This document shows, piece after piece, positions 3,049 through 32,254 of a stretch of DNA of 64,000 nucleotides. Positions within the stretch are counted from its first letter, which is position 1. Every line of letters starts with the position of its first letter. A model generated the notes under the pieces. It saw only the letters and a list, made by a program, of their open reading frames with translations, had not been told where the DNA came from and did no database searches. The DNA is taken from the NCBI RefSeq assembly GCF_014268595.2, contig NZ_CP077091.1, forward strand, positions 1,200,501 through 1,264,500. Reading direction: 5' to 3'. A program made the position numbers and the translations under genes. The stretch comes from Pseudomonas hamedanensis (lineage in GTDB: Bacteria > Pseudomonadota > Gammaproteobacteria > Pseudomonadales > Pseudomonadaceae).

Positions 3049-6000
3049 ATGTCCAGCCCCAGCGAGCCTCTCGTCCTCGCGGAACTCGATATCCCCGGTC
3101 GCACCGGCCCGGTAGCGGAAACTCCGGTGAAAATCTGGGGCATCAACATCGCGGCCGCGCTGGGCAACTTTCCACTTAATGGTCTGCTGTGCCAGGCGGG
3201 TCCGTGGGCGAACATGGCGGTTGGCGACACATTGACCCTCTATTTGGGCACCGGGCAAAACGTGTGGGTTGAAACCGTCGACAAGACCGAGGTCAACACG
3301 CAGCTCCGTATGTTCGTACCTTCCCGACACATGGTCGATGGCCTGTTCGCGGTGTCCTATACGGTCAAGCCCTTGGGCGGCACGGATCAACCGTCCGAAG
3401 TCATGCAGGTGCAGCTCAAGCTCACTCGCCCGGGCGGGCACGATGACAACGATGACAGCGGGCATTCCAAGCTGATCATGACGATGCCCCAAGAGATTGT
3501 TGACGGCGGTATCGACCAGGACAACGTGGCCGAGGGCGTGCCGATCACCGTCGGCAACAACGATGGCACGCCGCCTTATCCCTTTGCCGCGGCGGGCGAT
3601 GTTATTCGCATCAGCTGGGGTGGCATTTTCGTGTTCAGTGAGGCGCTGACCCAGGAACAGGCTGAAGGCAAAGCGCCGATCATCGTGACCATCACCGAAG
3701 CCGTCATCCGCGAGGCCGGTGATGCGGACTCCCGGCGTGGCCGTGGTGTTCGAGGTATACGACTGCGTGCTCAACCGCTCCGAGGACTGGAGCCCCGAGC
3801 AGCGTGTGCCGGTGGCGGTGGATGCGACTCGGGCGGACGCGCCGTTGCTCAAGGAAACGCTGAACAATGTACTGGACGTCGACAAGCTGGGCGACGCCAA
3901 TGGCACCGTGCAGATTATCGCCATGGATAAGAACAAGTTCGAGGTCGGTGACCTTGTATTCATCAGGATCAAGGGCACGCCCGTCGAAGGGCCGCCGATT
4001 GATTGGGAACCATCAGCAGGCGTGGAACTGGAAAGTGTGCCGAGCGTTATGGAAATCATGGCGCCCAACGCCGTGCTGCGCCAGTTGGCCAAGTCGCAGA
4101 TCACCTTGTCCTACCGCCTGGAAAAAGCCGATGCCTCTGTCGATTTACGCTCCAAAAGCCAGTTCATCCGTGCCATCGGCGAAATCCAGCGGCTGGCCGC
4201 GCCGATCATGCTGGACGAGAACTCCGGGGCGCTGGACCCGACACTGCTGCAAATCAGTCTCGAGATTCCCTTCGACAAATCCTTTGTCGAAGGCCAGGTC
4301 CTCAAACCGGTCATGCTCGGCACTACGCCAGGCCTCAAGCCCTACCTGCCTGACCTGCCAAGGCGCCCCATCACCTACAACGACATCGTCGAGGCGAAAC
4401 CGTTGCAGTACAAGATTGACGGCAAGCATCTGGCCCCGGTCAACGGTGGCACGGCCGAGTTCTATTACCAGCAACTGGTCGCCGCTGCGGTGCTCGCTAC
4501 ACTGGACCCGTTCGAGGCCACCCGGGCCGTTCGCGAGTCGATTCACACCGAGATCCTGCAAGTCGGCAAACCGCGCCTGGAACTGCCTGAACCGGTGGTG
4601 GCCGGCGTGGTGGACGGCGTCCTGCCCCCGACACTGCCGGCACCACCTTGACCGTGCCGTACACCGAAACGGTCGCCGGCGACGAAGTCTTCATGTTCTG
4701 GATTGGTTCGCTCACCGGTGAGTACACCGACTCGATCAAGCTGAACGAGTTCACCGCCGGCAAGGAAGTACCGTTCAACATCGAAGCCAAGCTGATCAAG
4801 GACAATGAAGGCGGAAAGGTGATCGTCCGGTACCAAATCAAGCGCACGGCGGGCGGGACGAGTTATGCCGAGCCGCTGGAGTTCAGTGTTGGGGTAGCGC
4901 TGGATCTCACCGCACCCGGTATCAAGGAAGCGCCGAACGGCACCAGCCTCGACCCGATCAACGCGCAGACCGAACTGACCGCGGTGGTTGCCCCTGGCGG
5001 CCTGCGCCTCCATGACAAAATCACCGTCATTTTCACTGGCGCCGCTGGCACACCCGCCGGCGGCTCGCACACCACCACGCCATGGACGGTGACCGCGCTC
5101 GGACCGCAGCACATACCGCTGCATGTGCCGGTCATCGCCTTCAACCTCGGCAAAACGGTGGAGATAACCTACATCGTGACCCGAGACAGTAAGCCGTCAC
5201 CGCCGTCGCAAGCGCTGACGTTGGTGGTGCTGCCGCTGGATAATCGTTATCTGGACAAACCGCTGATTCTGCAAGCGTCGGACGGCGGCGAAGGACGAGA
5301 GCTGGACGTCAGTCTGTTGACCGCCGCCGCCACCGTGCAAGTGAATAGCTGGCCGCATATTGCGCTGGGGCAGCCTGTCTGGTCGCAGGTGAAAGGCACC
5401 AAGAAGGATGGCGGTGTCTACGACGTAATATTCTGGGAACCGCCCCGCGCACAAACCAACGCGACGTGGATCAGACAAGGCTTTTGGACGTATTCGATTC
5501 CGCTCATTGATCTGCAGAAGCTGCAAGACGGCAGCGAGTTGACGGTGATATTCAAGGCGGGGCTTGGGGGTAGCGCGGTGGAGGGCGAGGCGGTGAGTTT
5601 TCCGCTGCGCACGTACATCGTCAAGACTGTTGAAGATGTGAAACCGGAAATCGGCAAGATCACCGGTTCGACAAACGAGGCCGAAATTCCTCAAGGCGGG
5701 GTCACGGTGGAAACGGCCGTAACCCTGAGCGGCGTTGCGGCCAAGGGACAGAAAGTCGAAGTCTTTGACGGCAATGTCTCCAAAGGTCAGGCAACGGCAC
5801 TTGCCACCACCGGCGTCTGGACGCTGCCCGTCACTGCCCTGGCTGTGGCGGCACACAGCTTTACCGCCAAAGCTTTGTATGGGAGCAATCCGGTGTCGGC
5901 CGCCAGGACGCTGACCGTGACGGCAGTTGTCGTCCCTACCTTGAGCTACGTGCTTGACGACAAAAACGTTGAAGTTCCCGAGGGTCAAACCACCGTCAGC

Positions 6001-6973: not shown

Positions 6974-7954
6974 TCAGGGCAGGAACCATTCTTGACGCTC
7001 GGAAAAGGTGTGGTGGATAACGTCGCTGAGCATCCGGGCTTCAGGCAGGTGTTGCGAATCGGCGTTGACGGCAAGCCATGCCTGCAATTGCATCGGTTCT
7101 TCGAACAGCCCCGGCAGCGCGCTCAAGCCACGGTCAAACCGACTCATATACGCCGGCAACAACCCAATGCACGCGCCACACCGAATCATCTCCAGCATAA
7201 ACTCATACGACTGCATCTGCACCACACCCGCCAGACGCTGTTCGACCAATTCATTCCACGGGCGAAAACTATCGATCTGCCGATCATGCTGCCATTGCAC
7301 CAGCATGAAATCGGCAAGGTCGTCGGTGGTTTCGGGGCGGGCGGTGACGCGGGAGTAGCGTTTGGCGATGTGGGGCAGATAGTCGAGACGCGCGAGTTGT
7401 TGAGGTTCGCTGGTGGCGAAGGTCGGGCCGGGTTGTGGGGTTTCGCCGTGAGCCAGCCAGAGGACGACGTCGGCGCTGACGGCGCGTAGCGACAGTTCGC
7501 TGTCCAGCGCGATGATTTCCAGGCGCACGCTGGCGTTGCGGCGCAGCAATGCGATGAGGTCGCGACCGAGGATGTCGTGGAGGATCGATTCGGCGACGGC
7601 CAGGCGAATCAGTGGCTGCTCGACCACTGGCAGTTTGCGTTCGTGGGCCAAGGCGATCAGTTTCGCCTGTAGCTGCTGGCCTTCGCGGGTCAGGCTGAGG
7701 GCGCTGCCCTGGAAGCTGAACAGACTGTGTTGCAGTTGCTGTTCGAGTTGCGCCAGTTGTTTGCGCAGCAGGGTCGAGCGTACGTTGAGGCTGCGCGCCG
7801 CTTGCATGAAGCAGCCGCAGCGGGCGCTGACCAGGAAGTATTGCGCGACTTCGTTGTCGATGGTCGCGGCCCGGGTGAGCCAGGGTTCAGGTTTGTTGGG
7901 CGGCGAGCGGTAATCGCCGGTGTTGGCGCGTCCTGCGGGTTCGGTGAATGACAT
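6974..7954 (-). CDS. LysR-family transcriptional regulator with divergent HTH
   Basis: A 326-residue LysR-type regulator. The HTH region lies at about residues 38-90 (AQYFLVSARCGCFMQAARSL onward, then RKQLAQLEQQL), after an unusual N-terminal extension of about 30 residues. The canonical Q-S-A/T-[VI]-S recognition helix is replaced by VRSTLLRKQL, so DNA binding may differ. The rest is the two-lobed effector-binding domain. The start ATG at 7954 has AGGGAG 7 bp upstream. It follows the TpsB/TonB operon on the same strand after a REP pair; in P. aeruginosa a LysR gene (PA0701, from memory) lies at the same place, so it may control that locus. The effector is unknown. Confidence 0.85.
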   Translation of the reverse strand: MSFTEPAGRANTGDYRSPPNKPEPWLTRAATIDNEVAQYFLVSARCGCFMQAARSLNVRSTLLRKQLAQLEQQLQHSLFSFQGSALSLTREGQQLQAKLIALAHERKLPVVEQPLIRLAVAESILHDILGRDLIALLRRNASVRLEIIALDSELSLRAVSADVVLWLAHGETPQPGPTFATSEPQQLARLDYLPHIAKRYSRVTARPETTDDLADFMLVQWQHDRQIDSFRPWNELVEQRLAGVVQMQSYEFMLEMIRCGACIGLLPAYMSRFDRGLSALPGLFEEPMQLQAWLAVNADSQHLPEARMLSDVIHHTFSERQEWFLP

Positions 7955-8001
7955 CGATGACTCCCTGTCGATCTATGTGGTTGTCTTTACACAATTCCCT
8001 T

Positions 8002-8089
8002 GTAGGAGTGAGCCTGCTCGCGATAGCGGTGTTTCAGTCGACATCACTAAACCTGACACTCTGCTATCGCGAGCAGGCTCACTCCTACA
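8002..8089. repeat. Paired inverted REP element
   Basis: GTAGGAGTGAGCCTGCTCGC at 8002 pairs with the complementary unit ending at 8089. It separates the last gene of the minus-strand operon from the LysR gene and could limit read-through or protect the mRNA 3' end. Confidence 0.9.
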
Positions 8090-8113
8090 GGGGGATTTGT
8101 GTGGGGGCTGGGA

Positions 8114-9061
8114 TCAGGGTTTTTCCTCAAGAATTTTGTTGAGCTCAGCACCATCGATGCTCAGCGTGGCGGTGTTGAGCATGCCGTCGAGGTAGGCCTG
8201 GGCGATCTGCTCCTGACGTTGCGCACGCAAGGCCTGGGTCAGTTGGTCGCGCAGTTCGTCCAGCGTCGCAGTGCGCGCCGGTTGTTGCTCGGTGAGTTTG
8301 ATGATGTGGAATCCGGCAGTGCTTTGTACGGGATCGGAGACGGCGCCAACCTTGAGCCGCGCCACCGCGCCGCGCACTTCTGGCACCAGTTGCTGCAACG
8401 GTTGCAGGCCGGTATCACCACCCCGCTCTGCCGTCACGCGATCCTGCGAATATTGCGTAGCGAGCGCTGCAAATTCGCCCGGTGCTGACTGGGCTTTCTT
8501 GCTCAACTCAAGCGCTTGTTTGCGCACCGTTTCCACATTCGAAGCCTCACTGACGCCGAGGAAAATCTGACTGACCCGGTACAGCGCCGGCGTCTGCCAG
8601 TTGGCCTTGCCGGCGTCATACGCCTGCTGCAACTCGGCCGCACTTGGATACTCCGCCGGCACCTGACTCACCGAGCGCAAATAATCACGAAACACGATCT
8701 GCTCGGTCGCCGCACGGGTCTGCCGGGCGATGTCGGGCCGCTGCGCCCAGCCCTGCGCGTCCGCCTGCTCCAACACGGCTTTCTCGGCCAGACGTGTGCG
8801 AATCCAGCGCTCCAGCGCCTCACGGTTGCCGCGCAGTTGCTCGCGGGTCTGCTGCGGGACCGCAGCAAGCAACGCCTGCAACTCTTCAGGCGAGACCTGT
8901 TGATTGCCCAGTCGTGCCACCGCTGGCCCGCTCGCAATCGCGGCTGCCGACGACGGTTGCTGGGCAGCGACCGGATCACTTCCAGGTCGCAGCACCAGCG
9001 CCACGGCCACCACCAACAGCACCACGGCGGCAGCGCTGACTACCATGGCAGGCTTTTTCAC
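8114..9061 (-). CDS. Membrane-anchored parvulin-type peptidyl-prolyl isomerase (PpiC/SurA-like)
   Basis: A 315-residue periplasmic chaperone/isomerase. Residues 5-25 form a signal anchor (VVSAAAVVLLVVAVALVL). A helical SurA-N-like segment follows (about 50-150), then a parvulin domain (about 160-265) with the family features YRVSQIFLGV, GGDTGLQPLQQLVPEV and STAGFHIIKL. A conserved proline/glycine pocket of parvulins is partly altered (G-L-Q in place of the usual G-W-[FV]). It is the last gene of the operon; its start overlaps the YbjN stop by 4 bp (ATGA), implying translational coupling. It probably helps fold an outer-membrane or secreted client of the operon, such as the TpsB or porin barrel. 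Confidence 0.9.
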   Translation of the reverse strand: MKKPAMVVSAAAVVLLVVAVALVLRPGSDPVAAQQPSSAAAIASGPAVARLGNQQVSPEELQALLAAVPQQTREQLRGNREALERWIRTRLAEKAVLEQADAQGWAQRPDIARQTRAATEQIVFRDYLRSVSQVPAEYPSAAELQQAYDAGKANWQTPALYRVSQIFLGVSEASNVETVRKQALELSKKAQSAPGEFAALATQYSQDRVTAERGGDTGLQPLQQLVPEVRGAVARLKVGAVSDPVQSTAGFHIIKLTEQQPARTATLDELRDQLTQALRAQRQEQIAQAYLDGMLNTATLSIDGAELNKILEEKP

Positions 9062-9528
9062 AGCGCCACTTCCTCTTCTTCAGTAACGACAACTTTCGCC
9101 GCCTGCGCCGCCGGGGCCTGGCTGAAGTCGCGCAGGTAAACGATGAATTCCTGCAACAGGCGATCCCACAACTCCAGATTGCCACGTAGGTGATCGTTGC
9201 TCACACCCGCAGCCACCACCACGTCCATTTCCATGACCAGAAACTCGCCTTGCAACGACAGCCGCGCAAAGCGCCGCGTGGCGTTCCACTGTTCGGCCAC
9301 CCCCTGCGGCAACTCACCTTGCACGCGCAGCGCGCAACTGAACGTGAAATCGACGTAACTGCCCTGCTCCACCGCCGCATTACCGAAACGTACGGCGTAG
9401 CCAATGCCCTGACTGGCGCTGAGCAACTGGACGATGCCGTTCTGCTCACTCGGGTTGACGCGATAACCGGCGGCTTGCAGCACATCGGTCAGCGATTGCG
9501 GTGAAACGTGGGTGATCAATTGAGTCAT
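9058..9528 (-). CDS. YbjN-domain protein
   Basis: A cytosolic protein of 156 residues (from the ATG at 9528) of the YbjN/type III chaperone-like fold. Features: an N-terminal helix with SPQSLTDVLQAAGYRV, a central beta sheet including YVDFTFSCALRV, and the C-terminal helix LWDRLLQEFIVYLRDF, then an acidic tail TEEEEVA. An ATG at 9546 overlaps the upstream stop (TGATG), but GGAAG 6 bp before 9528 makes the shorter form the better choice. YbjN proteins are linked to envelope and stress phenotypes in enterobacteria without known biochemistry. Here it is locked into the operon by overlap with the isomerase gene, suggesting a chaperone-type part. Confidence 0.8.
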   Translation of the reverse strand: MTQLITHVSPQSLTDVLQAAGYRVNPSEQNGIVQLLSASQGIGYAVRFGNAAVEQGSYVDFTFSCALRVQGELPQGVAEQWNATRRFARLSLQGEFLVMEMDVVVAAGVSNDHLRGNLELWDRLLQEFIVYLRDFSQAPAAQAAKVVVTEEEEVAL

Positions 9529-9545
9529 GACTGCTTCCTTGTTCA

Positions 9546-10175
9546 TCAGTGAGCGAGCGCAGCTTGCGGCGCGTCGAATTGCGTCTTGTAAAGCTCGTCG
9601 CCAAAGCCTTGGGCCAGCTCTTCGAATTTGACCCGGGCGCTACCGGCAAAGGGCTGGCGTATTTTCATCACCTCGGCGACATCAATGTTTTCGTAGGCCG
9701 TGAGGATCTGCTTGGCGACGCCGTACATTTGCTGATTCTTGACTGAACATTGCTGCACTTGTGTGTCACGTTCAGCCAGTTGCGCTTGCAGCTTCGAGCG
9801 CTCGGCCTCTTTGGCGCGAGCGAGGACCAGCAATTCGTCATAGGCCTTTTTGAACTTGCCGGTCTGCTCGGCACTGGCCGCGACTTGCGCCTGGGCCTGG
9901 CTGTGCAGGCTCTGTTGTTGCCCGGCCAGTTGCTCGGCGAGGCCTTTGGCTTTAGCCAGCTCGGCCGTCAGTTGTTTGATTTGCGCCTGGGCAGCCTTGG
10001 CCTCGTTTTGCGCCGCCAATTGCGCGGCGCTGGCCTGGGCCTGCTGGCTTTGCAGGGCCTGCAACTGTTGGGCGGTGCTGCGCAATTGCGTGCGCAAGCG
10101 TTCTTCCATGCCTTCGGCGCTCGCCCCGGTGGCGATCAACAGGCCGAGTCCGAGCCCTAACAAGCGGTTTTTCAT
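9546..10175 (-). CDS. Secreted coiled-coil periplasmic protein of unknown function
   Basis: A 209-residue protein with a clear signal peptide (MKNRLLGLGLGLLIATGASA, cleavage after Ala20). Residues 24-145 form a long Ala/Gln-rich coiled coil (repeated QLQALQSQQAQ-type heptads, AKAAQAQIKQL). A globular tail contains one cysteine (CSVKNQQMYGVAKQILTAYEN). GGGAGAGG precedes the ATG. The gene lies between porin and YbjN genes in the operon, with a 15 bp gap from the porin. The periplasm-spanning coiled coil suggests a tether or adaptor between the TonB complex and the outer-membrane porin/TpsB, but this is inference; no named family is recognised. Confidence 0.8.
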   Translation of the reverse strand: MKNRLLGLGLGLLIATGASAEGMEERLRTQLRSTAQQLQALQSQQAQASAAQLAAQNEAKAAQAQIKQLTAELAKAKGLAEQLAGQQQSLHSQAQAQVAASAEQTGKFKKAYDELLVLARAKEAERSKLQAQLAERDTQVQQCSVKNQQMYGVAKQILTAYENIDVAEVMKIRQPFAGSARVKFEELAQGFGDELYKTQFDAPQAALAH

Positions 10176-10190
10176 AACCTCTCCCGGCGC

Positions 10191-11888
10191 TTAAAAGCGC
10201 GTGTTGATCTCAAGCTGCAAGACGTCAATGTCGAACGGCGCGCCATACACCGCCTCGGTACTCATCCAGCGCCCGGTGGCCGAAACGTTTTTCGCCAGGC
10301 CATAGTTGCCGCCCATGAAATAGCCCTTGGCGTTGGTGCCGCCGAGGTGGAATGACGAGTCGTTGAAGCCGTCCGGCAAGGCGTCCGGCTGGATGTACTT
10401 GTAGCCGGCGAACAGGTTCCAGTCGCCCTTGCGTTTGAGGTCCAGCGCGTTGCCGAGGGTGAACTGCACCATCCACGCGTTGGCGCCGCTTTCGATGTCG
10501 CCATTGCTGTCGAGGTTGTTGACGATCTGCCCGGCCGAGCGCTTGCGCATCTCGCCTTCGTCGTAGCTGAGGTTGTGGATGTAGTTGCCCTGGCTGCGCA
10601 GTTTGAAGTCCTGCGGCAGATCGGCATCCCAGACCACGTTGAGATCGAGCAGGTTGAATTCGGACGCGAGGCCAACGAATTGCGGCTGTGGCGTCGTGGT
10701 CGGGTTAAGCGGGTTTGGCGTGATATCGCGCAGCAGGAACACGCTATTGCCCTTCTGCATGAACGCCGCGCGCGTGCCGTCGCTGTCGCAGCCCGGCGCA
10801 CCGGCCCACGGCTCGCAAGGGCTGGAGCGCTGGCCCTGAATGTCGTCGAAGCGGTAGTAAGCCAGCGCACCTTTCAAGCGGTTGTTACTGTTGATCGCCC
10901 ATTTCGCGCCGAGTTGCGCGCCGTACAGCCACTTGTTGTCGCTCTCTTCCTTATCGAAGCCATTGCTGCTGGCGCTGTCGTTGGTGTAATCGACCGGGAA
11001 CGCGCCGACCGTGCCGAACACGCCCCAATCGTGGTTGAGCTTGTGGTCGAAAATCGCTGCCACACCGTCGAAGTTCAAGTCGTTGGAATAGAGCATGTCG
11101 GTGGACATGAACGGGTTGGCGAAGCGCCCGCCCGTCAGCGTCAATTCATCCATCGGCTTCCAGCTCAGATAGCCCTGATCGAGCCAGATGTCTTTCTTGG
11201 CGAAACCGCCGCCGAGGTTTTGCGTGGTCGAAACCGGGTTGTTGTCCGAGCCGGTGCCGATGCGGATACCGGCGGTCCACTCGGGCGATATCACCGCTTT
11301 CATGCCCAGCCGGGCGCGCAGGCGGAACAGGTTTTCGCGGTCTTCGCGGGTATTGAGCAACGGCGGCAGGCTGGTGCTGCTGTTGGGGTTGACGTCGTAC
11401 GGGCCGTTGTTGTTGAGCTTGGCGAAGTCGACGATTTCGTTGCTGTTGTTGCCCGAGTAATAACGCGATTCGTCGCGCAAGCGGATGTCGCCGTCGAAGC
11501 TGATGCGCGCAGCCCATTCCGGGAAGCTGTTGGGCGCCGCCCAGTTTTCCTGTTTGGCGGTGGCCATGACTTCGGCTTTGACCTGATCGCGGATCTGGTC
11601 ACGCACCGCCGCTGGCACATATTGCACGCGTACATCGCCCGGCGCCGCGACCGGCCCGGCCGCCACGGCGGTAGACGCCGCAGCCTGTTTCGCCTGCGCC
11701 GCTTCGTTCTGCGCCTGAGCGATCAGCGCGTCAGCCTTGTCCTGTTTCAGAATGCCCTGCTCGACCAGCAAGCGGATCAGATTGATCGTGGCGTTTTCCG
11801 AGGGCGCAGGCGCTGCCACGGCCTGACCGACCAGGGTCGCAATGACCATGCCGACCGCCAGGGACAATCGATTCACGTTGGAAATCAT
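10191..11888 (-). CDS. Putative outer-membrane porin (Porin_5-like)
   Basis: About 565 residues with a signal peptide (MISNVNRLSLAVGMVIATLVGQAVA). After it comes a helical region (about 30-100) rich in Ala/Gln (AQNEAAQAKQAA) that may be a trimeric coiled coil, then a beta-barrel with alternating aromatic strands ending in the outer-membrane signature F (LQLEINTRF). A motif RISFDGDIRLRDESRYY marks the first barrel strands, typical of this putative porin family. I chose ATG 11888 (AGGAG 10 bp upstream); a GTG at 11894 is possible. As part of the TpsB/ExbBD/TonB operon it may provide the passage energised by TonB, though it carries no obvious TonB box. Substrate unknown. Confidence 0.85.
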   Translation of the reverse strand: MISNVNRLSLAVGMVIATLVGQAVAAPAPSENATINLIRLLVEQGILKQDKADALIAQAQNEAAQAKQAAASTAVAAGPVAAPGDVRVQYVPAAVRDQIRDQVKAEVMATAKQENWAAPNSFPEWAARISFDGDIRLRDESRYYSGNNSNEIVDFAKLNNNGPYDVNPNSSTSLPPLLNTREDRENLFRLRARLGMKAVISPEWTAGIRIGTGSDNNPVSTTQNLGGGFAKKDIWLDQGYLSWKPMDELTLTGGRFANPFMSTDMLYSNDLNFDGVAAIFDHKLNHDWGVFGTVGAFPVDYTNDSASSNGFDKEESDNKWLYGAQLGAKWAINSNNRLKGALAYYRFDDIQGQRSSPCEPWAGAPGCDSDGTRAAFMQKGNSVFLLRDITPNPLNPTTTPQPQFVGLASEFNLLDLNVVWDADLPQDFKLRSQGNYIHNLSYDEGEMRKRSAGQIVNNLDSNGDIESGANAWMVQFTLGNALDLKRKGDWNLFAGYKYIQPDALPDGFNDSSFHLGGTNAKGYFMGGNYGLAKNVSATGRWMSTEAVYGAPFDIDVLQLEINTRF

Positions 11889-11927
11889 CTGCACACAACT
11901 CCTTTTGCCAAAGCTCGAATAAATGAA

Positions 11928-12632
11928 TTAACCCGGACGTCGCCCTTGCAGGGACAAGCGCACAGGCAAAGTAATGGAGGCCGGAGGCCGTTCGCTGAGG
12001 GCCGGCGCGCCGCGTAACGCGGCCAGCACTTGGGTATCGATTTGCGGATTGCCGCTGGACTTGATCAGCTCGACGCGGGTGATCTCGCCGACGCTGCTCA
12101 GCCACACATCCGCTTGCAGCGAAAACGCGAGATTGCGCAGGTCGGGGTTTTCGCGCAGCAAACGCTGAAAGGTGAACGCCAGAAACTGGCTGTACGTGCC
12201 CGTACCCAGACGCCCGCCGCCAGCACCGGCCATGCCGCCGCCCTTGCCCGCGCCGATGTTGAACGCGTCGTTGCCACTTTGCGCATCGCCGTCCATTTGC
12301 ATCGGGTTGGCCAGATCATCCGCCGGCGATGGCGGCGCCTCTTCTTCAGGCTTGACCTCTTGCGGTTCAGGCGTTGGCTCGGGCTCGACGACTTTTTCTT
12401 CCACCGGGGTTTCCGGCTCCGGCGGTTTCTCCGGCGGCGGAGGCGGTGGTGGCGGCAGCGGAATGATCGTCGGCACCTTCGGCGCTTCACGGCGGATACC
12501 GCTCATATCGTTGGCCCACTGCCAGAGGAACCACGCGGCGAGCACACCGATCAGCAATCCGGCGCCCCATTTCACATAGCGCAACGGCGACTTTTTCACG
12601 GGCGGCGGCTCGATCGGGAGTTGTGCAGTCAT
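11928..12632 (-). CDS. tonB: TonB-family energy transducer
   Basis: A 234-residue TonB homologue. It has a short cytosolic N-terminus, one membrane helix (about 21-43, containing the GLLIGVLAAWFLWQW stretch), a proline-rich periplasmic spacer (eight consecutive prolines near residue 60, then E-P/K-P repeats), and a C-terminal TonB domain with FQRLLRENPDL and VELIKSSGNPQIDTQVLAAL. TonB passes energy from ExbB-ExbD to outer-membrane receptors. It follows exbD by 3 bp. The linker contains a Gly-rich patch GAGKGGGMAGAGGG. Being encoded with its own ExbB/ExbD, it is likely dedicated to this locus rather than the housekeeping TonB. Confidence 0.92.
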   Translation of the reverse strand: MTAQLPIEPPPVKKSPLRYVKWGAGLLIGVLAAWFLWQWANDMSGIRREAPKVPTIIPLPPPPPPPPEKPPEPETPVEEKVVEPEPTPEPQEVKPEEEAPPSPADDLANPMQMDGDAQSGNDAFNIGAGKGGGMAGAGGGRLGTGTYSQFLAFTFQRLLRENPDLRNLAFSLQADVWLSSVGEITRVELIKSSGNPQIDTQVLAALRGAPALSERPPASITLPVRLSLQGRRPG

Positions 12633-12635
12633 GGC

Positions 12636-13061
12636 TCAGCCCTGGCTCGGTTTGCCGGTCACGAGACCGACTTGCGACAGTTCGAGCCGGCGCAACAGAT
12701 CCAGCACCTCAATGACTTTCTGGTATTGCACGGTCGCGTCACCGCGCACGATCACAGGAAAATCCGGACTCTGCGCTTTCTCGATGCGCAGGCGTTCTTC
12801 CAGTTCGGCCAAGGTCACCGGATAGGCATCAAGAAACACCTGGCCGCCGTCGTTGACCGAAATCGCCTTGGTCTTGGCTTCCGACAGCGACACCGAGGCG
12901 CTGGCCTTGGGCAGGTTGATCTGAATCCCGGAAACCTGCGCCGTGGCGGTAAGAATGAACATCACCAGCACCACCATCAGCACATCGACCAGCGGGGTGA
13001 TATTGATGCTGTCGACGGCGGCATCTTCTTCATCATCGTGGGAGGCATTTACGGACGCCAT
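12636..13061 (-). CDS. exbD: ExbD-family biopolymer transport protein
   Basis: A 141-residue inner-membrane protein. The single N-terminal helix begins after DSINITPLVDVLMVVLVMFI, the ExbD/TolR signature with the essential membrane aspartate (Asp in PLVDV). The periplasmic part follows with DAYPVTLAELEERLR and FPVIVRGDATVQYQKVIEVLDLL, the usual ExbD fold. ATG at 13061 has GAGGAG 8 bp upstream; the longer open frame overlaps the preceding gene and is not used. Together with the ExbB domain encoded 13 bp upstream it forms the proton-driven motor that energises TonB. Confidence 0.95.
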   Translation of the reverse strand: MASVNASHDDEEDAAVDSINITPLVDVLMVVLVMFILTATAQVSGIQINLPKASASVSLSEAKTKAISVNDGGQVFLDAYPVTLAELEERLRIEKAQSPDFPVIVRGDATVQYQKVIEVLDLLRRLELSQVGLVTGKPSQG

Positions 13062-13074
13062 GTCAGGGTGCTCC

Positions 13075-14874
13075 TCAGGCCGGTACAGAGTGGTTGGCGT
13101 GATGGCCGCGCGCATGCGCCGACTCACTGAGCTGGCTCTCGCCGTGCAACTCCGCCAGGCGAGTGATGAACTCGTCGACGAAGATGCGCATGTCGGCACT
13201 GACTTCCTTGTTGCGGGTGATCAGGCGGTTGTAACCAAACAGCGCGGGGATCGCGACGAACAGACCCATCGCCGTCGCGAGCAGCGCAGCCGCCATGCCC
13301 GGCGCAATGGCGTTGATGTTGACGTCGCCGGCCATCGCCGTGCCGAGGAACACCACCATGATCCCCAGCACCGTGCCGAGCAGGCCGATGTATGGGCCGC
13401 CAGCGATGGCGTTGGACAGGGTCGAGAGTTTCGAACTCAGTTGCTGGTTTTCGCGGGTGCGCACGCCGTCCATGGAACAGCGGATCGCTTCGATGGTGGC
13501 CCCGGAAACCGATGAGGTGTCGGCGCCCTGCTCGCGGCGGGTGCGGATCTCTTTCACCGCCACCAGATACAGGCGCCACAGCGGCGAATACTGCAAGCGC
13601 TGGGCGAGTTGCGCGTCGTCGGCGAACATCTCCAGGCGCGTGCCGACCTTGGCGAATTGCACGCGGAAATCTTCATTGGCGGCGGTGACGCGGCCGAGCG
13701 TACGGTTCTTGCGCAGCATGATGACCCACGACTGGAACATCATCAGCACCAGCACGGCGATGATCACCCAGGCGTCGATTGGAACGGCGTTGAGCAGGAA
13801 GCCGAGGCTGCCGAAACCAAAACCGGACTGTTCTTCATCGACACCGTAAGCCACCAGTTTCGACTCGGCGCCTTGCGAGGTCGCATCGGCCAGTAACAGC
13901 GCGGCTGGGCGGGCGACTTTGGACAGGCGCAGCTCGTCGATGGCGCCCACGAATGGCTGGAACGCACCTTCGTGCAGATCGGCGCCGATGGCCATGACCG
14001 AGTTGAATGCCGGCATTGCTTGGGCCAACACTGCGCTCTCGCGACCGTTGAGGTACAGCGTCACCTTCGAGCCTTGAGCGGTCAGGGCGACGTGTTGCCA
14101 TTGCGCCGGAGTCAGCGCTTGCGTGGCAGCGGCGCGCTGGCCGTCGATCTCCACGAACGGCACGCCCTGGTTGACACCGATCAGCAGACTTTGCGTGCCC
14201 TCGCGACGAGCGAGAATCAATTGTTCGCCATTGGCCTGATCCAGACGCAACCAGGCACTGAACGTAAACGCACTATCGGTGTTGTGTTGCAGCGAGGGAC
14301 TGGCCGGCAGGAGCAATGGCCGACCACTGAGCTGCAATGCGCGCCCTACTACGCCGTCAATTGCCGCGCCGGTCGCGCTTTGTGCGGTGTTGCCGTAGGC
14401 GGTGGTGTCTTTGGCCGGCGTACCGGTGGCGCCGTCGAAGTGATAGAGCGCGGTGTAATTCGGATCGAAGGTCAGTTGGCCGTTGCCGGTGGCCGGCGCC
14501 TTCTGGTTGCCGTAGTACATCCAGATGTCCTGACGCTGACCGCCCTCGACGTTCGGCACATCGACCCAGATCAGCGCCATGCCCATCAGCGCATCGAAAC
14601 TTTCGATCTGGTGGTTGAGTACGGTTTTGTCATCGGCGGCAACAAAGCGCAGATCCGCGCCGTCCTCTTTCACGCCGTCAAAGGTGAAATTGCCGGTGTG
14701 CAGGCGCACCAGCAGCGCGGTTCGGCCCAGAGCTTGATTTATCGCCGCGCCTTGCGGCGTGGTGTCGACGGCGATCTGTTTGCGGTAATGCCAGTCGTCC
14801 TGCCACCAGGCCTGGGCCGTGGCCGGGAGCACGAAGCCCAGGCAGATCAACAACGAAAGGAAGAGGCGTTGCAT
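13075..14874 (-). CDS. exbB: DUF2341-LamG-ExbB fusion: proton-channel subunit with a large periplasmic sensor
   Basis: A 599-residue protein with signal peptide (cleavage near Ala20-Ala22). Residues 23-140 form a DUF2341-like module (WWQDDWHYRKQI start, IWVDVPNV), and residues 145-330 a LamG/concanavalin-like jelly roll (AFTFSAWLRLD, LTPAQWQHVALT, VTLYLNGRE, GAIDELRLSKVARP). A membrane helix follows (about 362-385), then the MotA/TolQ/ExbB domain with YIGLLGTVLGIMVVFLG and the final helix LLATAMGLFVAIPALFGYN. Ordinary ExbB is only about 240 residues, so the N-terminal half is an added periplasmic region that probably binds glycan or a protein partner. It sits between TpsB and ExbD genes. P. 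aeruginosa exbB2 (PA0693) is, from memory, organised the same way. Confidence 0.9.
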   Translation of the reverse strand: MQRLFLSLLICLGFVLPATAQAWWQDDWHYRKQIAVDTTPQGAAINQALGRTALLVRLHTGNFTFDGVKEDGADLRFVAADDKTVLNHQIESFDALMGMALIWVDVPNVEGGQRQDIWMYYGNQKAPATGNGQLTFDPNYTALYHFDGATGTPAKDTTAYGNTAQSATGAAIDGVVGRALQLSGRPLLLPASPSLQHNTDSAFTFSAWLRLDQANGEQLILARREGTQSLLIGVNQGVPFVEIDGQRAAATQALTPAQWQHVALTAQGSKVTLYLNGRESAVLAQAMPAFNSVMAIGADLHEGAFQPFVGAIDELRLSKVARPAALLLADATSQGAESKLVAYGVDEEQSGFGFGSLGFLLNAVPIDAWVIIAVLVLMMFQSWVIMLRKNRTLGRVTAANEDFRVQFAKVGTRLEMFADDAQLAQRLQYSPLWRLYLVAVKEIRTRREQGADTSSVSGATIEAIRCSMDGVRTRENQQLSSKLSTLSNAIAGGPYIGLLGTVLGIMVVFLGTAMAGDVNINAIAPGMAAALLATAMGLFVAIPALFGYNRLITRNKEVSADMRIFVDEFITRLAELHGESQLSESAHARGHHANHSVPA

Positions 14875-14886
14875 GGACGTGCTCCG

Positions 14887-16485
14887 TTAGAAAGTGGCTT
14901 GAAGGTTGAAGTGCAGGCGCGATTCCTGTTTCGAGGTGTTCGGCCCTTCGAGTAGCGGATAGCCCCAGTCGAGGCTGCCGGACAGCCATTTGCTGAGGCT
15001 GGCGCGGGTGCCGAGGCCAACGCTGGCGAGGGCGTAATTGGCGTCCTGATCCGGCAGTTCGTCGCGCAGGTACAGTTGCGCGCCCTCGGCGAAGGCGTAG
15101 AAGCGCCAGTCCTGCATCCAGGTGCCGGCGTACTTCGCCAGCGACGGCGTGCGCAGTTCCTGGCTGAGCAGATAGCCGTCGTCCGCCGTGCGTTCGGCGG
15201 CCAGATAGCCGCGCACCGACGTGGCGCCGCCGGCGGAGAATTGTTCGTTGGAAACCAGTGGACCGGAGGCCAGTTGAAACGCGGCTTTGCTCGCGCTCTG
15301 CCAGTCGTTGTCGAAGGTCCAGGTGTAATTCGTGTCGCCCTTGAGCACGGCGAAACTCGGCTTGGCGCGGTAGCGTTTGTAGTCGAAATCTTCGTCGTCG
15401 CTGCCGTAGCCGAAGACGCTGCGCGTGGCTGCGACCAGGCTCAGGCCAAGGCCGAGCTGGCTCTTTTCACTGTAGCGATAGCCGTTGTAGGCGAAGGTGA
15501 ACGGTGCGTATTGCAGCGGCACCTTGTCGCTTTCGCCGGACAGGCTCAGGCGCTCGTCGAAGTCCTTGAAGTCGATGCCGGCCGACAGCGAGTTCGACCA
15601 GTTGCCGCTTGCGGGCAGCGTGTAGATCGCTGCGACGCCGTAGCTGTGACCCTTGCCGAGGACGTTGCTGCCGCCGATGGTGGCGACGTTGCTGTCGGAC
15701 TGATAACCGGAGAACTGCACACTCCAGCGCTCGCTCAACGGCGCGGTATAAGAACCGGACCAGACCTTGGCGTTGTCGGTTTCCTGCGGCGCGGTGAAGA
15801 ACGTCAGGTTGACGCTGTGCCCCAGTTGCCAGAGGTTGTTGTAACCGAGGCTGGTGACCGTGCGCAGCTTTTCGGTGTCGGCGCTGTAGTCGTTATTGAG
15901 GCCGACGCTGGCGGTCCACGGGTTCTGGTCTTCAACCTGAAGGTCGACATCCATGGTGCCGGGGCGCTGACCTTCGCGCACCAGCGGCATGACTTGGCGG
16001 CCGGGGGTTTTGTTGAGCTGCGCCAGTTCGCCCTGAACCTTGGCGAAGTCCGGCACCTCGCCCTCCTTCAGCGCCGGCACGTTGTCGCGAATGTCCAGTG
16101 GCGAATAGTGTTTGGCGCCGACCACACGCACGCGGCCGACCTTGGTTTCGCTGACTTGCAGGTAGACGATGCCATCGGCCACAGCCTGTTCGGGCAACTC
16201 GACGAACACCGACTGATAGCCGCGTTCCTGATAGGCCTTCTGCAACGCGTCGCGCGCGCCTTCAATGTCGCTCAGGGCTTTTTGCGGGCCGAGGAACGGG
16301 TACACCGCTTCCTCGATGGCCCGCGCATCGAGCACGGTGTTGCCGCGCACGAAGTATTCGTTGACGTCGACCAGACGCGGAGCGGCCGGCGCTTCTGCGC
16401 CCTCCTCGGCCAACGCCGGCTGCGCGCCCGCCGCCACCAGCAACCAGCCCCACAGCGCCAGCCGTGACGTGAAAATCCGTTCCAC
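14887..16485 (-). CDS. TpsB-family outer-membrane transporter (ShlB/FhaC/HecB type), PdtB-like
   Basis: A two-partner-secretion transporter of 532 residues. The GTG at 16485 is preferred: AGGGGG lies 4-5 bp upstream and it gives a proper signal peptide (RIFTSRLALWGWLLVAAGAQ to ALA). Two POTRA domains follow (about 30-190), with VNEYFVRGNTVLDARAIEEA and RVRVVGAKHYSPLDIRDN, then a 16-strand barrel ending LHFNLQATF. The VRGY motif (GGATSVRGYLAAE) that marks the L6 hairpin of Omp85/TpsB proteins is intact. TpsB proteins export one large TpsA partner, but no TpsA gene lies next to it. A longer in-frame TTG start at 16545 overlaps the upstream stop. Confidence 0.92.
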   Translation of the reverse strand: MERIFTSRLALWGWLLVAAGAQPALAEEGAEAPAAPRLVDVNEYFVRGNTVLDARAIEEAVYPFLGPQKALSDIEGARDALQKAYQERGYQSVFVELPEQAVADGIVYLQVSETKVGRVRVVGAKHYSPLDIRDNVPALKEGEVPDFAKVQGELAQLNKTPGRQVMPLVREGQRPGTMDVDLQVEDQNPWTASVGLNNDYSADTEKLRTVTSLGYNNLWQLGHSVNLTFFTAPQETDNAKVWSGSYTAPLSERWSVQFSGYQSDSNVATIGGSNVLGKGHSYGVAAIYTLPASGNWSNSLSAGIDFKDFDERLSLSGESDKVPLQYAPFTFAYNGYRYSEKSQLGLGLSLVAATRSVFGYGSDDEDFDYKRYRAKPSFAVLKGDTNYTWTFDNDWQSASKAAFQLASGPLVSNEQFSAGGATSVRGYLAAERTADDGYLLSQELRTPSLAKYAGTWMQDWRFYAFAEGAQLYLRDELPDQDANYALASVGLGTRASLSKWLSGSLDWGYPLLEGPNTSKQESRLHFNLQATF

Positions 16486-16541
16486 ACTACCCCCTGAAAT
16501 TCGCGATGACCTGTTGGCGTTTGTCGCCCCGGTGTGTTGCG

Positions 16542-17153
16542 TCAATTGCTGATCGTTGTCGCGCAGGCGTGCTTGCCCAGCCAGGTGTGCAAGAGCGCGA
16601 AGTTCAAGGAGAACTCGGGCATTTGCAGCAAGGCACCACAGAACACTTCGCCGATGATTTTCTGAATGAGCAGCACCGCCCGCGGCTCGTTGAGCAGCGT
16701 GGCGATGTCGCGACTGAGGGCGTTGAAGCTCCAGACTTTCTGGTTCAGGCCCAGGCCGACGAACCAGCGAAACAGCAGGTTGTAGTTCAGTTGCTCATAG
16801 AGTTGTTGTTCACTGGGCACCGAATACAGCAGTTGCAGGAGCAGGATGTGCATGACCGTTTGCGCGGGAATGAGCATGCCGGGTTCGGCATTGAGGTCGT
16901 GCAGCAGGTCGCGGTGGGCGTCGAGCAGGTCGTCGATCTGCGGGCGCAACAAGACCAGCGAATGCCCCGGCGGAATGTAGCTCGACACTTCCTTCAAGGC
17001 GCCTTGCCAGTCATCCTGCGAGACGATCCAGACCCACGGCGCGCCGTAGCGATACACCGAAACCGGCTTCTTGCGCGCGGCTTCGACGATCTTCGACAGG
17101 CGTTGATCAAGCTCCTGCATGCCCACTTTCGAGTAGCGTTCCATAGTCCCCAC
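16542..17153 (-). CDS. Hybrid protein: Phd/YefM-like N-terminus and transposase DUF772 domain, PhdA-like
   Basis: A 203-residue protein. Residues 5-55 (SKVGMQELDQRLSKIVEAAR, then PVSVYRYGAPWVWIVSQDDW) resemble Phd/YefM antitoxins. Residues about 75-165 match the N-terminal helical domain of IS5-type transposases (DUF772): MLIPAQTVMHILLLQLLYSV, then QLNYNLLFRWFVGLGLNQKVWSF. No catalytic DDE domain follows and no inverted repeats flank it, so it is not a transposon. It heads the operon, 56 bp before the TpsB start. P. aeruginosa PhdA (PA0691, 'prevent-host-death protein A') stands at this place and was linked to biofilm DNA release (recalled, not checked). Likely a DNA-binding regulator or adaptor. 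GTG 17153 (GGGAG upstream) or ATG 17144 may start it. Confidence 0.75.
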   Translation of the reverse strand: MGTMERYSKVGMQELDQRLSKIVEAARKKPVSVYRYGAPWVWIVSQDDWQGALKEVSSYIPPGHSLVLLRPQIDDLLDAHRDLLHDLNAEPGMLIPAQTVMHILLLQLLYSVPSEQQLYEQLNYNLLFRWFVGLGLNQKVWSFNALSRDIATLLNEPRAVLLIQKIIGEVFCGALLQMPEFSLNFALLHTWLGKHACATTISN

Positions 17154-17296
17154 TGCCTCACTCCCGGCGTCCCGCCTCGGCTTGTGAAAAGCGCCCCGTT
17201 GGGCCCCTCAAGCGCGTTACACAGGCATGACCGGACTGGCTATGTGCTACCGAACTTTTGTCATAAAAGCTTCATTACACGCCACGCAAAAACCCT

Positions 17297-17383
17297 GTGG
17301 GAGTGAGCCTGCTCGCGATGGCGGTGTGTCCGTCAAAAAGGAGTTGGCTGACCTGACGCTATCGCGAGCAGGCTCACTCCTAC
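17297..17383. repeat. Paired inverted REP element in the 5' leader of the TpsB/TonB operon
   Basis: GTGGGAGTGAGCCTGCTCGC at 17297 faces the complementary unit ending at 17383. It lies between the operon's first gene and the PhoB-box-like site, an unusual place because REPs are mostly found at 3' ends of transcripts. In other genomes a TpsA gene occupies this junction. Confidence 0.9.
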
Positions 17384-17426
17384 AGGGGATCGGCGTTGCA
17401 CCTGCCCTTCTGTTCTGCACCTCTGC

Positions 17427-17444
17427 GTGACATTCACATGACAT
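17427..17444 (-). promoter_or_regulatory. PhoB box-like direct repeat
   Basis: Read on the minus strand: ATGTCAT, 4 bp, ATGTCAC. Each half differs by one base from CTGTCAT/C, and the spacing (7+4+7) is exactly that of a PhoB box. Orientation is towards the phdA/tpsB operon, about 275 bp before its first start codon. No good sigma70 -10 follows at the expected distance; in P. aeruginosa the pdtA promoter is reported to need both PhoB and the ECF sigma factor VreI (from memory), which would fit. Confidence 0.55.
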
Positions 17445-17529
17445 TTGCGGGGTTAAATCCGCAGGCATTCAGGCGTATAACCTGTAGAGACTTTTGATCT
17501 ACATGCGCAAATCAACACGGGGTAGCGAC

Positions 17530-30771: not shown

Positions 30772-31752
30772 TCAGGTGGCAGCGGTTACGCTCACCCAGT
30801 AACGGGTTCGGTAATCAATGTGCAAGCGCAGTGACTGCGCGATCAGTGCCAGGACCTGATCGTTGTCGGCGAGCTGGAAGGTGCCGGAAACACGACGATC
30901 AGCGACCTCTTCGGCGCAGCGCAGTATCCCGGGACGATAACGCGACAACTCCGCGATGAAATCACTGAGGCGCATATTGCGCGCACTGATCACCCCGTCA
31001 CCCCAGCTCCATAGATCAAGGCCGTTGTCCCTGAACATTCGGGCGCCAGTTGATGTGAACAGCAGCTGATTTTCCGCCTGGACGCTGCGGCTCGCAGGCG
31101 TTTGGCTGGAGCCGGGGAACACCGTGACCGATCCTTGCTGAGCCGCGACGAGCGTGCCATCGTCACGCTCGCGGACGAGAAAGCGGGAGCTCTGAGCGCG
31201 TATGATCCCGTCACGTGATTGCACCCAGAACGGTCGCGCTTGAGGCGAGTGTTGATCCGCACCGACATTCACGATGATTTCACCACGTCGCAGGATGATC
31301 AGGCGTCGCTGGGCGTCGAAATCGCTGTCGACGGCGCTATCGCTATTGAGCTGGACAAGGCTGCCATCATCGAGCTGGAAGCGTCGTTGCTCGCCGGTGC
31401 TGCTGCGCTGTTGCGCGAACATGGCGGGTACGGGTGTGTAGTCCCGGCCGAGCCAGGCTGCCGTGCCAACAGTCGCCAATAGGCCCAGTAGCTTCAGGCT
31501 TTCCCGCCGTCGCATTCCTTGATGGGTGCCGTTAAGGGTTTGTCGGGCCAGTTGAGCTGGCACGCCTGCGAGTTCATCCCCAAGCGTTTCCACACGCTGC
31601 CACGCCAACCCATGCTCCGGGTGCTGCTGGAGCCAGTGCTCAAAAGTGCGCTGTGTTTGTTCATCGGCTTGATTGAAGCGAAGGCGCACCAGCCATTGGA
31701 TCGCCTGCTCGACAATCGCCGGATCCGGCGCCTGCGGCTCACGACTCGACAT
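30772..31752 (-). CDS. fecR: FecR-family anti-sigma/sigma regulator
   Basis: A 326-residue inner-membrane regulator. The cytosolic N-terminus (DPAIVEQAIQWLVRLRFNQA, then FEHWLQQHPEHGLAWQRVE) is the DUF4880 sigma-binding part. A membrane helix lies near residues 90-108 (LKLLGLLATVGTAAWLG), followed by the periplasmic FecR domain (FQLDDGSLVQLNSDSAVDSD) and STN-interacting end. ATG 31752 overlaps the end of fecI by 14 bp, indicating coupled translation. It carries the TonB-receptor signal to FecI. Confidence 0.94.
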   Translation of the reverse strand: MSSREPQAPDPAIVEQAIQWLVRLRFNQADEQTQRTFEHWLQQHPEHGLAWQRVETLGDELAGVPAQLARQTLNGTHQGMRRRESLKLLGLLATVGTAAWLGRDYTPVPAMFAQQRSSTGEQRRFQLDDGSLVQLNSDSAVDSDFDAQRRLIILRRGEIIVNVGADQHSPQARPFWVQSRDGIIRAQSSRFLVRERDDGTLVAAQQGSVTVFPGSSQTPASRSVQAENQLLFTSTGARMFRDNGLDLWSWGDGVISARNMRLSDFIAELSRYRPGILRCAEEVADRRVSGTFQLADNDQVLALIAQSLRLHIDYRTRYWVSVTAAT

Positions 31753-32254
31753 AACGCACGCGATAGCAGTGTTGCAGGGCCGTGGCGAGGTCGCGCTCCA
31801 CCGTCGCGCGGGAAACACCCAGCTTTTCGGCTATTTGCGCGCACGTCAGGCCGTCGAGTCGGGCCAATAAAAACGCCTGGCGAACTCTCGGTTTAAGCGA
31901 ACCGAGCATGCGGTCTATGCGCTCGAGCGCATCAAGAATCATCAGCCGGCTCTCTTCCGAGGGAACCTCGTGTTGAGGCAGCAACGTGATGCTTTCCAGG
32001 TAGGCACGTTCGAGTTCGCGACGACGATACTGATCGATCATCAGTCCGCGGGCGATACTGCTCAAATAGGCGCGTGGTTCGCGCAAGGGGCTGGACTGGC
32101 GGGATTTGAGCAGACGCACGAAGGTGTCCTGCGCCAAATCAGCTGCGTTATCGCGACAGCCAATGCGTCGGACCAGCCAGCCGTGTAACCACGAGTGATG
32201 GGTGCGATAGAGCAGCCCTAGATCTGCAGTACCTAGTGTTTCATCGCTGCGCAT
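31739..32254 (-). CDS. fecI: FecI-type ECF sigma factor
   Basis: A 171-residue ECF sigma factor. Region 2 (about 15-80) includes LLYRTHHSWLHGWLVRRIG, DNAADLAQDTFVRLL and REPRAYLSSIARGLMIDQYR; region 4 (about 115-165) includes LKPRVRQAFLLARLDGLTCA and QIAEKLGVSRATVERDL. ATG 32254 with GGGAT upstream is preferred over an earlier in-frame ATG. A Fur-box-like site sits 25 bp upstream. It should direct transcription of the adjacent receptor gene. Confidence 0.94.
   Translation of the reverse strand: MRSDETLGTADLGLLYRTHHSWLHGWLVRRIGCRDNAADLAQDTFVRLLKSRQSSPLREPRAYLSSIARGLMIDQYRRRELERAYLESITLLPQHEVPSEESRLMILDALERIDRMLGSLKPRVRQAFLLARLDGLTCAQIAEKLGVSRATVERDLATALQHCYRVRYVES

Follow-up and report, generated by a model that had tools for sequence, protein, structure and literature searches.

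A Pdt-type transport operon of Pseudomonas hamedanensis, its TpsA partner encoded 52 kb away, and a candidate proton motor for one class of two-partner secretion

The 64,000-nucleotide window analysed here (C1:1200501-1264500) belongs to the Pseudomonas hamedanensis genome, a single contig (C1) of 6,045,338 bases, and carries a minus-strand run of ten open reading frames (ORFs) in operon layout at window positions 6974-17153. We conclude that this operon, ordered phdA-pdtB-exbB(fusion)-exbD-tonB-porin-coil-ybjN-ppiC-lysR, very probably supplies the transport functions of a Pdt two-partner secretion (TPS) system that is dispersed and bears sequence marks of phosphate/VreI control. Its TpsA partner is not missing but is encoded 52 kb away. 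The original prediction, made from the window alone, had described a machine without a TpsA partner, whose transporter might serve an unknown client or a distant TpsA; the search of the genome for TpsA-type proteins that it proposed has now been run, and the single protein found contradicts its headline and bears out the last of these options.

A distant TpsA under a matching promoter motif

A whole-genome profile search gave one match to the TPS-domain family PF05860, at C1:1280891-1281646 on the minus strand. The match lies in an intact ORF of the pdtA type outside the window (C1:1269623-1282123, minus strand; 4166 amino acids, aa), which we call tpsA. The protein has an NPXG adhesin N-terminal domain, a TPS domain at residues 161-410 and a DUF3739 domain at 3955-4065. 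The stop codon of tpsA is 52.0 kb from the phdA start, upstream of the operon and on the same strand. A PstS-like gene and the type II secretion genes for GspF, GspE and the secretin are its upstream neighbours, and pdtA of P. aeruginosa PAO1 likewise lies beside type II secretion (hxc) genes.

The operon and tpsA share a promoter motif. Local alignment of the regions upstream of phdA and tpsA returned ATGAAG-TT-x-TGACA-xxx-GTTCGGT, a composite of a pho box and the -35-like TTCGGT, which lies at 17249-17275 (minus strand) before phdA and, 61 bases ahead of the tpsA ORF, at C1:1282184-1282210. The alignment score in the window genome was 15, barely above the best of 50 shuffles (14); among the 11 genomes shown, 8 had an alignment score higher than every one of 50 shuffles, the others being G061, G044 and G004. 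The pattern ATGAANNTTNNNTGACANNNNTTCGGT, allowed up to 2 mismatches, has exactly two matches in the 6.05 Mb, one upstream of phdA and one upstream of tpsA, each with 0 mismatches, and the reversed pattern used as a control had 0 matches in the whole genome. As these two sites were themselves the source of the pattern, this count is not blind and the relatives provide the better test. The phdA-side motif was present with 0-1 mismatches in 38 of 38 genomes examined (window genome included) and the tpsA-side motif with 0-2 mismatches in 37 of 37, whereas 1500 shuffles always had at least 5 mismatches; the survey left out G107 on the phdA side (no phdA), and G108 and G025 on the tpsA side (no tpsA anchor). 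A CCG[TC]C placed 15 bases from TTCGGT, in 14 of the 38 phdA and 21 of the 37 tpsA upstream regions and unmatched in the others, is no more than suggestive of a -10 element.

Passages of PMC4971064 describe separate pdtA and phdA promoters in PAO1, each with a pho box, a -35 and a -10 element; mutations were used to dissect the pdtA promoter, and gel shifts showed PhoB binding to both. The pho box and VreI-type -35 found here before both units match PAO1 by that described layout and by the motif before phdA in P. aeruginosa PA7. The expected link to low phosphate is thereby borne out at the level of promoter motifs, and it is at the same level that a TpsA encoded elsewhere appears to share the operon's expression. 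Homologues of vreA, vreI and vreR lie on the same strand about 24 kb upstream of tpsA (C1:1305895-1308154; 42, 54 and 47% identity to the corresponding genes of a Klebsiella plasmid). Between them and the type II secretion genes there is a CAP12/Pycsar-type TIR gene with a deaminase-like ORF (L010:17257-19428, C1:1298756-1300927), a possible defence insert. Within the window, positions 30772-32203 have weak similarity to VreR (24%) and VreI (27%) and probably encode an ordinary FecI/FecR-type surface-signalling pair.

No TpsA adjoins phdA. Nothing but the promoter motif and a REP pair lies in the stretch 17154-17493, beyond which a divergent ORF begins at 17494 (judged by eye, aldehyde-dehydrogenase-like); the original prediction was correct on the absent gene and the REP pair but had placed the REP pair there alone. 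The pair (17303-17377, with inverted cores of 16 bases at 17303 and 17362) lies upstream of that promoter, towards the position that tpsA occupies in genomes of the adjacent type. The same core recurs in two more pairs, at 678/737 and 8008/8067. The pair at 8008/8067, between ppiC and lysR, and that at 17303/17362, directly upstream of the phdA promoter, are possible recombination sites.

Co-inheritance and repeated separation

The survey covered 119 genomes of the genus, an even sample of a larger group. TpsB matches reaching at least E 1e-60 were present in 41 of them; identity was 70% or higher in 39 and 32% in the remaining two. DUF3739 occurred once each in exactly those 39 PdtB genomes and in 0 of the 80 others (Fisher p 2.6e-32, a value that, like those below, takes no account of shared ancestry). 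Synteny, whose comparison the original prediction had suggested, is complete: gene order and strand, followed by tblastn with the ten proteins, are identical in all 39 (the window genome and 38 relatives), and the operon is therefore more than a chance run of genes. The only gene missing from any of these operons is phdA, in G107.

The distance between tpsA and the operon varies. The two are adjacent in 10 of the 39 genomes, 7.7 kb apart in one, at least 36 kb apart on the same contig in 18 and on different contigs in 10, of which 9 are apart by their flanking sequence and one (G083) has them at contig ends; reading of the coordinates thus places them far apart in 27, perhaps 28, genomes. The adjacent/apart label changes at least 8 times on a quick tree of 82 rows, 7 of the changes being forced by starred branches, and on this tree the separation of tpsA from the operon has happened repeatedly. 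Among the matches listed for a profile of the TpsA C-terminus, 80 named loci have pdtB within 10 kb in 31 cases and at least 4 kb of downstream sequence without pdtB in 41, and 8 are undeterminable. Since pdtB is out of reach in 41 of these 72 determinable loci, as in P. hamedanensis, we do not treat a pdtA directly upstream of phdA as defining a Pdt/VreI locus. Separation is already partly in print: passages of PMC2729926 (2009) report that in P. fluorescens a tpsA-like gene lies next to hxc-like genes, and that tpsA is separate from tpsB-exbBD clusters in Rhodopseudomonas palustris and Janthinobacterium. The new part is the class-level link between TpsA and motor described below.

The open frame around DUF3739 is shorter in two relatives, G034 (631 aa) and G108 (3430 aa). 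In G034 (L129) the TpsA frame is interrupted, by a real change or a sequencing error, and pdtB and the motor operon are complete.

The operon genes, all on the minus strand, agree by ORF and Pfam calls with the content given in the original prediction, which had counted nine and left out the first. This gene, phdA (16542-17153), is PA0691-like and matches DUF772, with an N-terminal Phd_YefM match below cut-off. The TpsB transporter gene pdtB (14887-16545) is followed by the fusion gene exbB (13075-14874), whose product has a signal peptide (by eye), DUF2341, LamG and MotA/TolQ/ExbB domains, by exbD (12636-13061, with its start assigned to the MASVN methionine codon, an ATG at 13061; as a mechanical ORF it extends to 13199) and by a tonB4-like tonB with a TonB_2 C-terminal domain (11928-12632). 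Then come an outer-membrane porin of family Porin_5 (10191-11894), a PA0697-like coiled-coil protein with no Pfam family that is present in 39 of 39 genomes (9546-10175), a YbjN-family protein (9058-9546), a PpiC-type peptidyl-prolyl isomerase (8114-9061) and a LysR-type regulator (6974-7954). PdtB has the features of a TpsB protein at the sequence level, with POTRA domains (POTRA_2), a ShlB barrel and an intact VRGY loop, shared without exception by the 8 PdtB homologues aligned, so that the description of the transporter as intact holds. Its relatives among Protein Data Bank (PDB) sequences are CdiB (6wim) and FhaC (4qky). FhaC has an N-terminal plug helix, H1; in PdtB, judged by eye only, about 13 residues separate the likely signal cleavage site from POTRA1.

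The recognition of a pdt locus was likewise sound. Names and order of PA0690-PA0701 in passages of PMC7035377 agree with it, and in P. aeruginosa PA7 (L245) the genes from phdA to ppiC stand in identical order directly after tpsA, the stretch ending before lysR. The P. aeruginosa Pdt/VreI system (PUMA3, PA0674-PA0701), as described in parts of PMC2729926, PMC4971064 and PMC7035377, has in common with the present genome the genes of the transport operon and their order, the PstS-like and type II secretion genes next to tpsA, vreAIR and two pho-box promoters. It differs in that tpsA here is 52 kb from phdA-pdtB and that vreAIR here is split from the type II secretion genes by the stretch with the CAP12-type TIR gene. 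In R. palustris and Janthinobacterium, according to passages of PMC2729926, tpsA stands apart from a tpsB-exbBD-PA0696 cluster and all are tied to PUMA3 loci; one surveyed genome, G315, resembles them with three DUF3739 TpsAs and one motor, whereas P. hamedanensis has one of each.

The genome encodes two TpsBs only. At L009:3731-7164 (C1:3284730-3288163) the second lies directly behind a PF15984 'bacterial collagen' gene; with the single PF05860 match of the genome located elsewhere, the client that this TpsB exports may be one that lacks a recognised TPS domain. It was set aside as exporter of the 4166-aa TpsA because it follows the collagen-like gene.

A proton motor linked to DUF3739 TpsAs

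That a private TonB motor accompanies the TpsB, as originally proposed, is borne out. Asp and Thr residues of ExbB and ExbD serve in the proton channel of such motors. In the operon proteins these channel residues are present at positions read from the sequence, including the membrane Asp of ExbD in ITPLVDV, as is the TonB C-terminal domain. ExbB and ExbD exceed the general Pfam MotA_ExbB and ExbD cut-offs; their best NCBIfam models are TolQ and TolR, with the ExbB, ExbD, TolQ and TolR models all below cut-off. TonB has a proline-rich spacer and no conserved His in its membrane helix, where E. coli TonB has H20. The motor thus shares channel residues and a TonB-type C-terminal domain with TonB-ExbB-ExbD and Tol-Pal, but its ExbB carries DUF2341-LamG, its TonB helix lacks that His, and its operon partner is a TPS system and not a TonB-dependent receptor. 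FhaC/FhaB and CdiB/CdiA are related through the TpsB sequence and a TPS-domain client. To our knowledge, no motor genes are part of those systems.

The motor follows one class of TpsA across Pseudomonadota. DUF3739 was found in 11 of 349 genomes, and the DUF2341-LamG part of the fusion ExbB was matched in 10 of these; in the eleventh, G399, the ExbB match (52% identity) is cut by the contig start. None of the 338 other genomes gave a match to that part at E 1e-25 with no more than 3 candidates scored in each, the matches in 65 of them beginning at residue 337 or later. DUF3739 and the fusion ExbB accordingly fall in the same 11 of 349 genomes (Fisher p 5e-21). TpsAs with PF05860 are far more widespread (119 of 349 genomes, the 11 included), and the fusion motor is found in 0 of the 108 genomes with other TpsAs (Fisher p 9.5e-16). 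TpsAs and motors number three to one in G315, two to one in G399 and two to two in G271. The motor loci outside Pseudomonas, ten from surveyed genomes and one on a Klebsiella plasmid, have ExbB and ExbD in all 11, TonB in 10, the porin in 10 and PdtB in 8. A rule that the motor must lie beside pdtB was tried and is not upheld in L198 and L201.

These surveys make a proton-motor-coupled TPS subclass plausible from sequence, and because cargo and proton-motor genes co-occur in the surveyed relatives, motor-driven export is possible. The idea that TonB energises a function undescribed for TPS systems is thereby strengthened, although the motor mechanism itself is only inferred. PMC7035377 calls exbB2-exbD2-tonB4 a putative TonB system that is still uncharacterised, and the passages of PMC2729926 do not state that the motor and the TpsA class are exclusive to each other. 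A literature search on TPS with TonB/ExbB returned no motor requirement in titles or abstract openings among the matches listed, and one on DUF3739 found no paper in the library searched.

The plasmid locus (L004, NZ_CP084804.1) is on a conjugative Klebsiella quasipneumoniae plasmid, where a single block close to arsenic resistance genes contains vreAIR-like genes, tpsA and the motor operon; the system is able to travel. In G315 (L202:528-986 and 1214-2065), a small ORF, by eye resembling a free-standing TonB C-terminal domain, lies next to a VreA-type STN-TonB_2 protein, and ECF-sigma-like and FecR-like ORFs (by eye) directly precede pdtB.

Proposed function and alternatives

From general knowledge of the TPS family, PhoB and VreI would switch on the operon and the tpsA unit jointly in low phosphate, Sec would export TpsA, and PdtB would thread it through the outer membrane, aided by PpiC and perhaps the coiled-coil protein. 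The ExbB-fusion, ExbD and TonB might then be a proton-motive-force motor dedicated to the DUF3739 client class, acting on its C-terminal end (DUF3739 and the tail beyond it) and finishing or releasing export or holding TpsA at the surface; for this part of the proposal we judge the evidence about evenly balanced.

Several points weigh against a dedicated export motor. FhaC secretes in vitro with no need of energy or cofactors (in passages of PMC9355242). PAO1 transposon mutants in tpsA, tpsB, the tonB homologue and PA0696 had wild-type virulence in zebrafish under VreI overexpression (in passages of PMC2729926), so the motor has no phenotype in that test. The NCBIfam ranking makes a Tol-like role of ExbB and ExbD possible. 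Among the loci outside Pseudomonas, the search found no PdtB homologue for L198, L201 and L203 (the L203 contig begins inside ExbB), nor a TonB in L200 or a porin in L198. The fusion part in G399 is unseen owing to that contig end, the ExbB survey could miss diverged fusions at the cut-off and number of candidates used, and the Fisher tests disregard shared ancestry.

Alternatives differ in how well they accommodate these data. An operon truly orphaned in this genome and serving another client would explain why only a promoter motif and a REP pair adjoin phdA, yet the intact DUF3739 TpsA with the identical promoter motif 52 kb away, and the joint occurrence in 39 of 39 genomes, make it very improbable. 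Still harder to credit is a split locus that is decaying or silent: the shortened frames in G034 and G108 would suit it, but in the window genome neither tpsA nor any of the ten ORFs is interrupted, both units retain the promoter motif, and the operons are complete in 39 of 39 genomes save for one phdA. More substantial is the proposal that, in phosphate starvation, the motor powers the Porin_5 protein encoded beside it or some other step of nutrient uptake and is just co-regulated with the TPS pair. TonB systems classically serve outer-membrane uptake, the porin gene directly follows tonB and is present in 10 of the 11 motor loci outside Pseudomonas, and energy-free secretion by FhaC points the same way; against this, the porin has no TonB-dependent-receptor match in Pfam, and the surveys found the fusion motor only in the 11 DUF3739 genomes of 349 and in none of the 108 with other TpsAs. 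We regard uptake as a possible but doubtful role. A Tol-Pal-like tether, stabilising the outer membrane or cell wall around the export site and not pulling TpsA, would suit the sub-threshold TolQ and TolR matches, the large LamG-bearing N-terminal part of ExbB and the missing His, but the TonB_2 C-terminal domain and proline-rich spacer of the third component count against it, as does the link to one TpsA class; we think it unlikely.

If a dedicated motor acts on TpsA, the end of the protein is a candidate contact. DUF3739 is followed by an Ala/Gln-rich stretch, a [VI]-x-V-x-V-L-[GS]-like element and a variable linker, and many DUF3739 TpsAs end in SPVQVLGAG...LTEEERxxL. Within the last 130 residues V-x-[VI]-L-G is found in 37 of 38 readable Pseudomonas TpsAs (the miss is G107; G034 was left out), LTxEER in all 38. 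Of 14 distant ends (13 from DUF3739 loci of the 349-genome survey and the Klebsiella one) 12 have V-x-[VI]-L-G, L155 having a variant and L157 none. The motif is in 0 of 18 usable control TpsAs from 20 Pseudomonadaceae ends fetched, a weak control, as these are untyped and perhaps of polymorphic-toxin kinds. For the C-terminal 350 residues, taken from the near-identical relative L261, AlphaFold gave a low-confidence model from an alignment of 33 rows (mean pLDDT 53.6, residues 242-350 below 50), which agrees, weakly, with a probably unstructured conserved tail. The likeness of this tail to a TonB box was judged by eye only.

VreA, with an STN and a TonB_2 domain (TonB_2 in 13 of 14 VreAs), carries the closest genomic paralogue of the operon TonB C-terminal domain. 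A profile of that domain scored 1.4e-34 against itself, 6.3e-13 against VreA and 1.5e-4 or worse against others in the genome, and profile-profile comparison of the VreA and TonB domains gave a probability of 99.0 (E 7.1e-18). A TolA/TonB-like fold of the VreA C-terminus, with 9.3% identity to TolA, is noted in passages of PMC2729926 (2009). VreA as a signal-reading activator was also considered, a role weakened by the PAO1 vreA deletion, which left VreI activation and virulence unaffected (in passages of PMC7035377). More speculatively, and with considerable doubt, the private TonB could grip the TpsA tail with its strand-like V-x-V-L-G motifs and complete, release or tether the protein by proton motive force, VreA could bind the same tail and couple secretion state to the VreI regulon or buffer the motor, and in some genomes one motor could serve several scattered TpsAs that share the tail as a tag.

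A 2021 review calls the driving force of two-partner secretion through the outer membrane unclear (in passages of PMC8151025). Our data suggest that export of DUF3739-type proteins may use an energy source absent from textbook TPS. A TpsA subclass never found without its own proton motor in the surveyed genomes offers an experimental handle on this question, and the conserved tail together with the VreA/TonB domain pair provides a specific binding test. More broadly, a protein pair can keep a matching promoter and joint inheritance despite repeated chromosomal separation.

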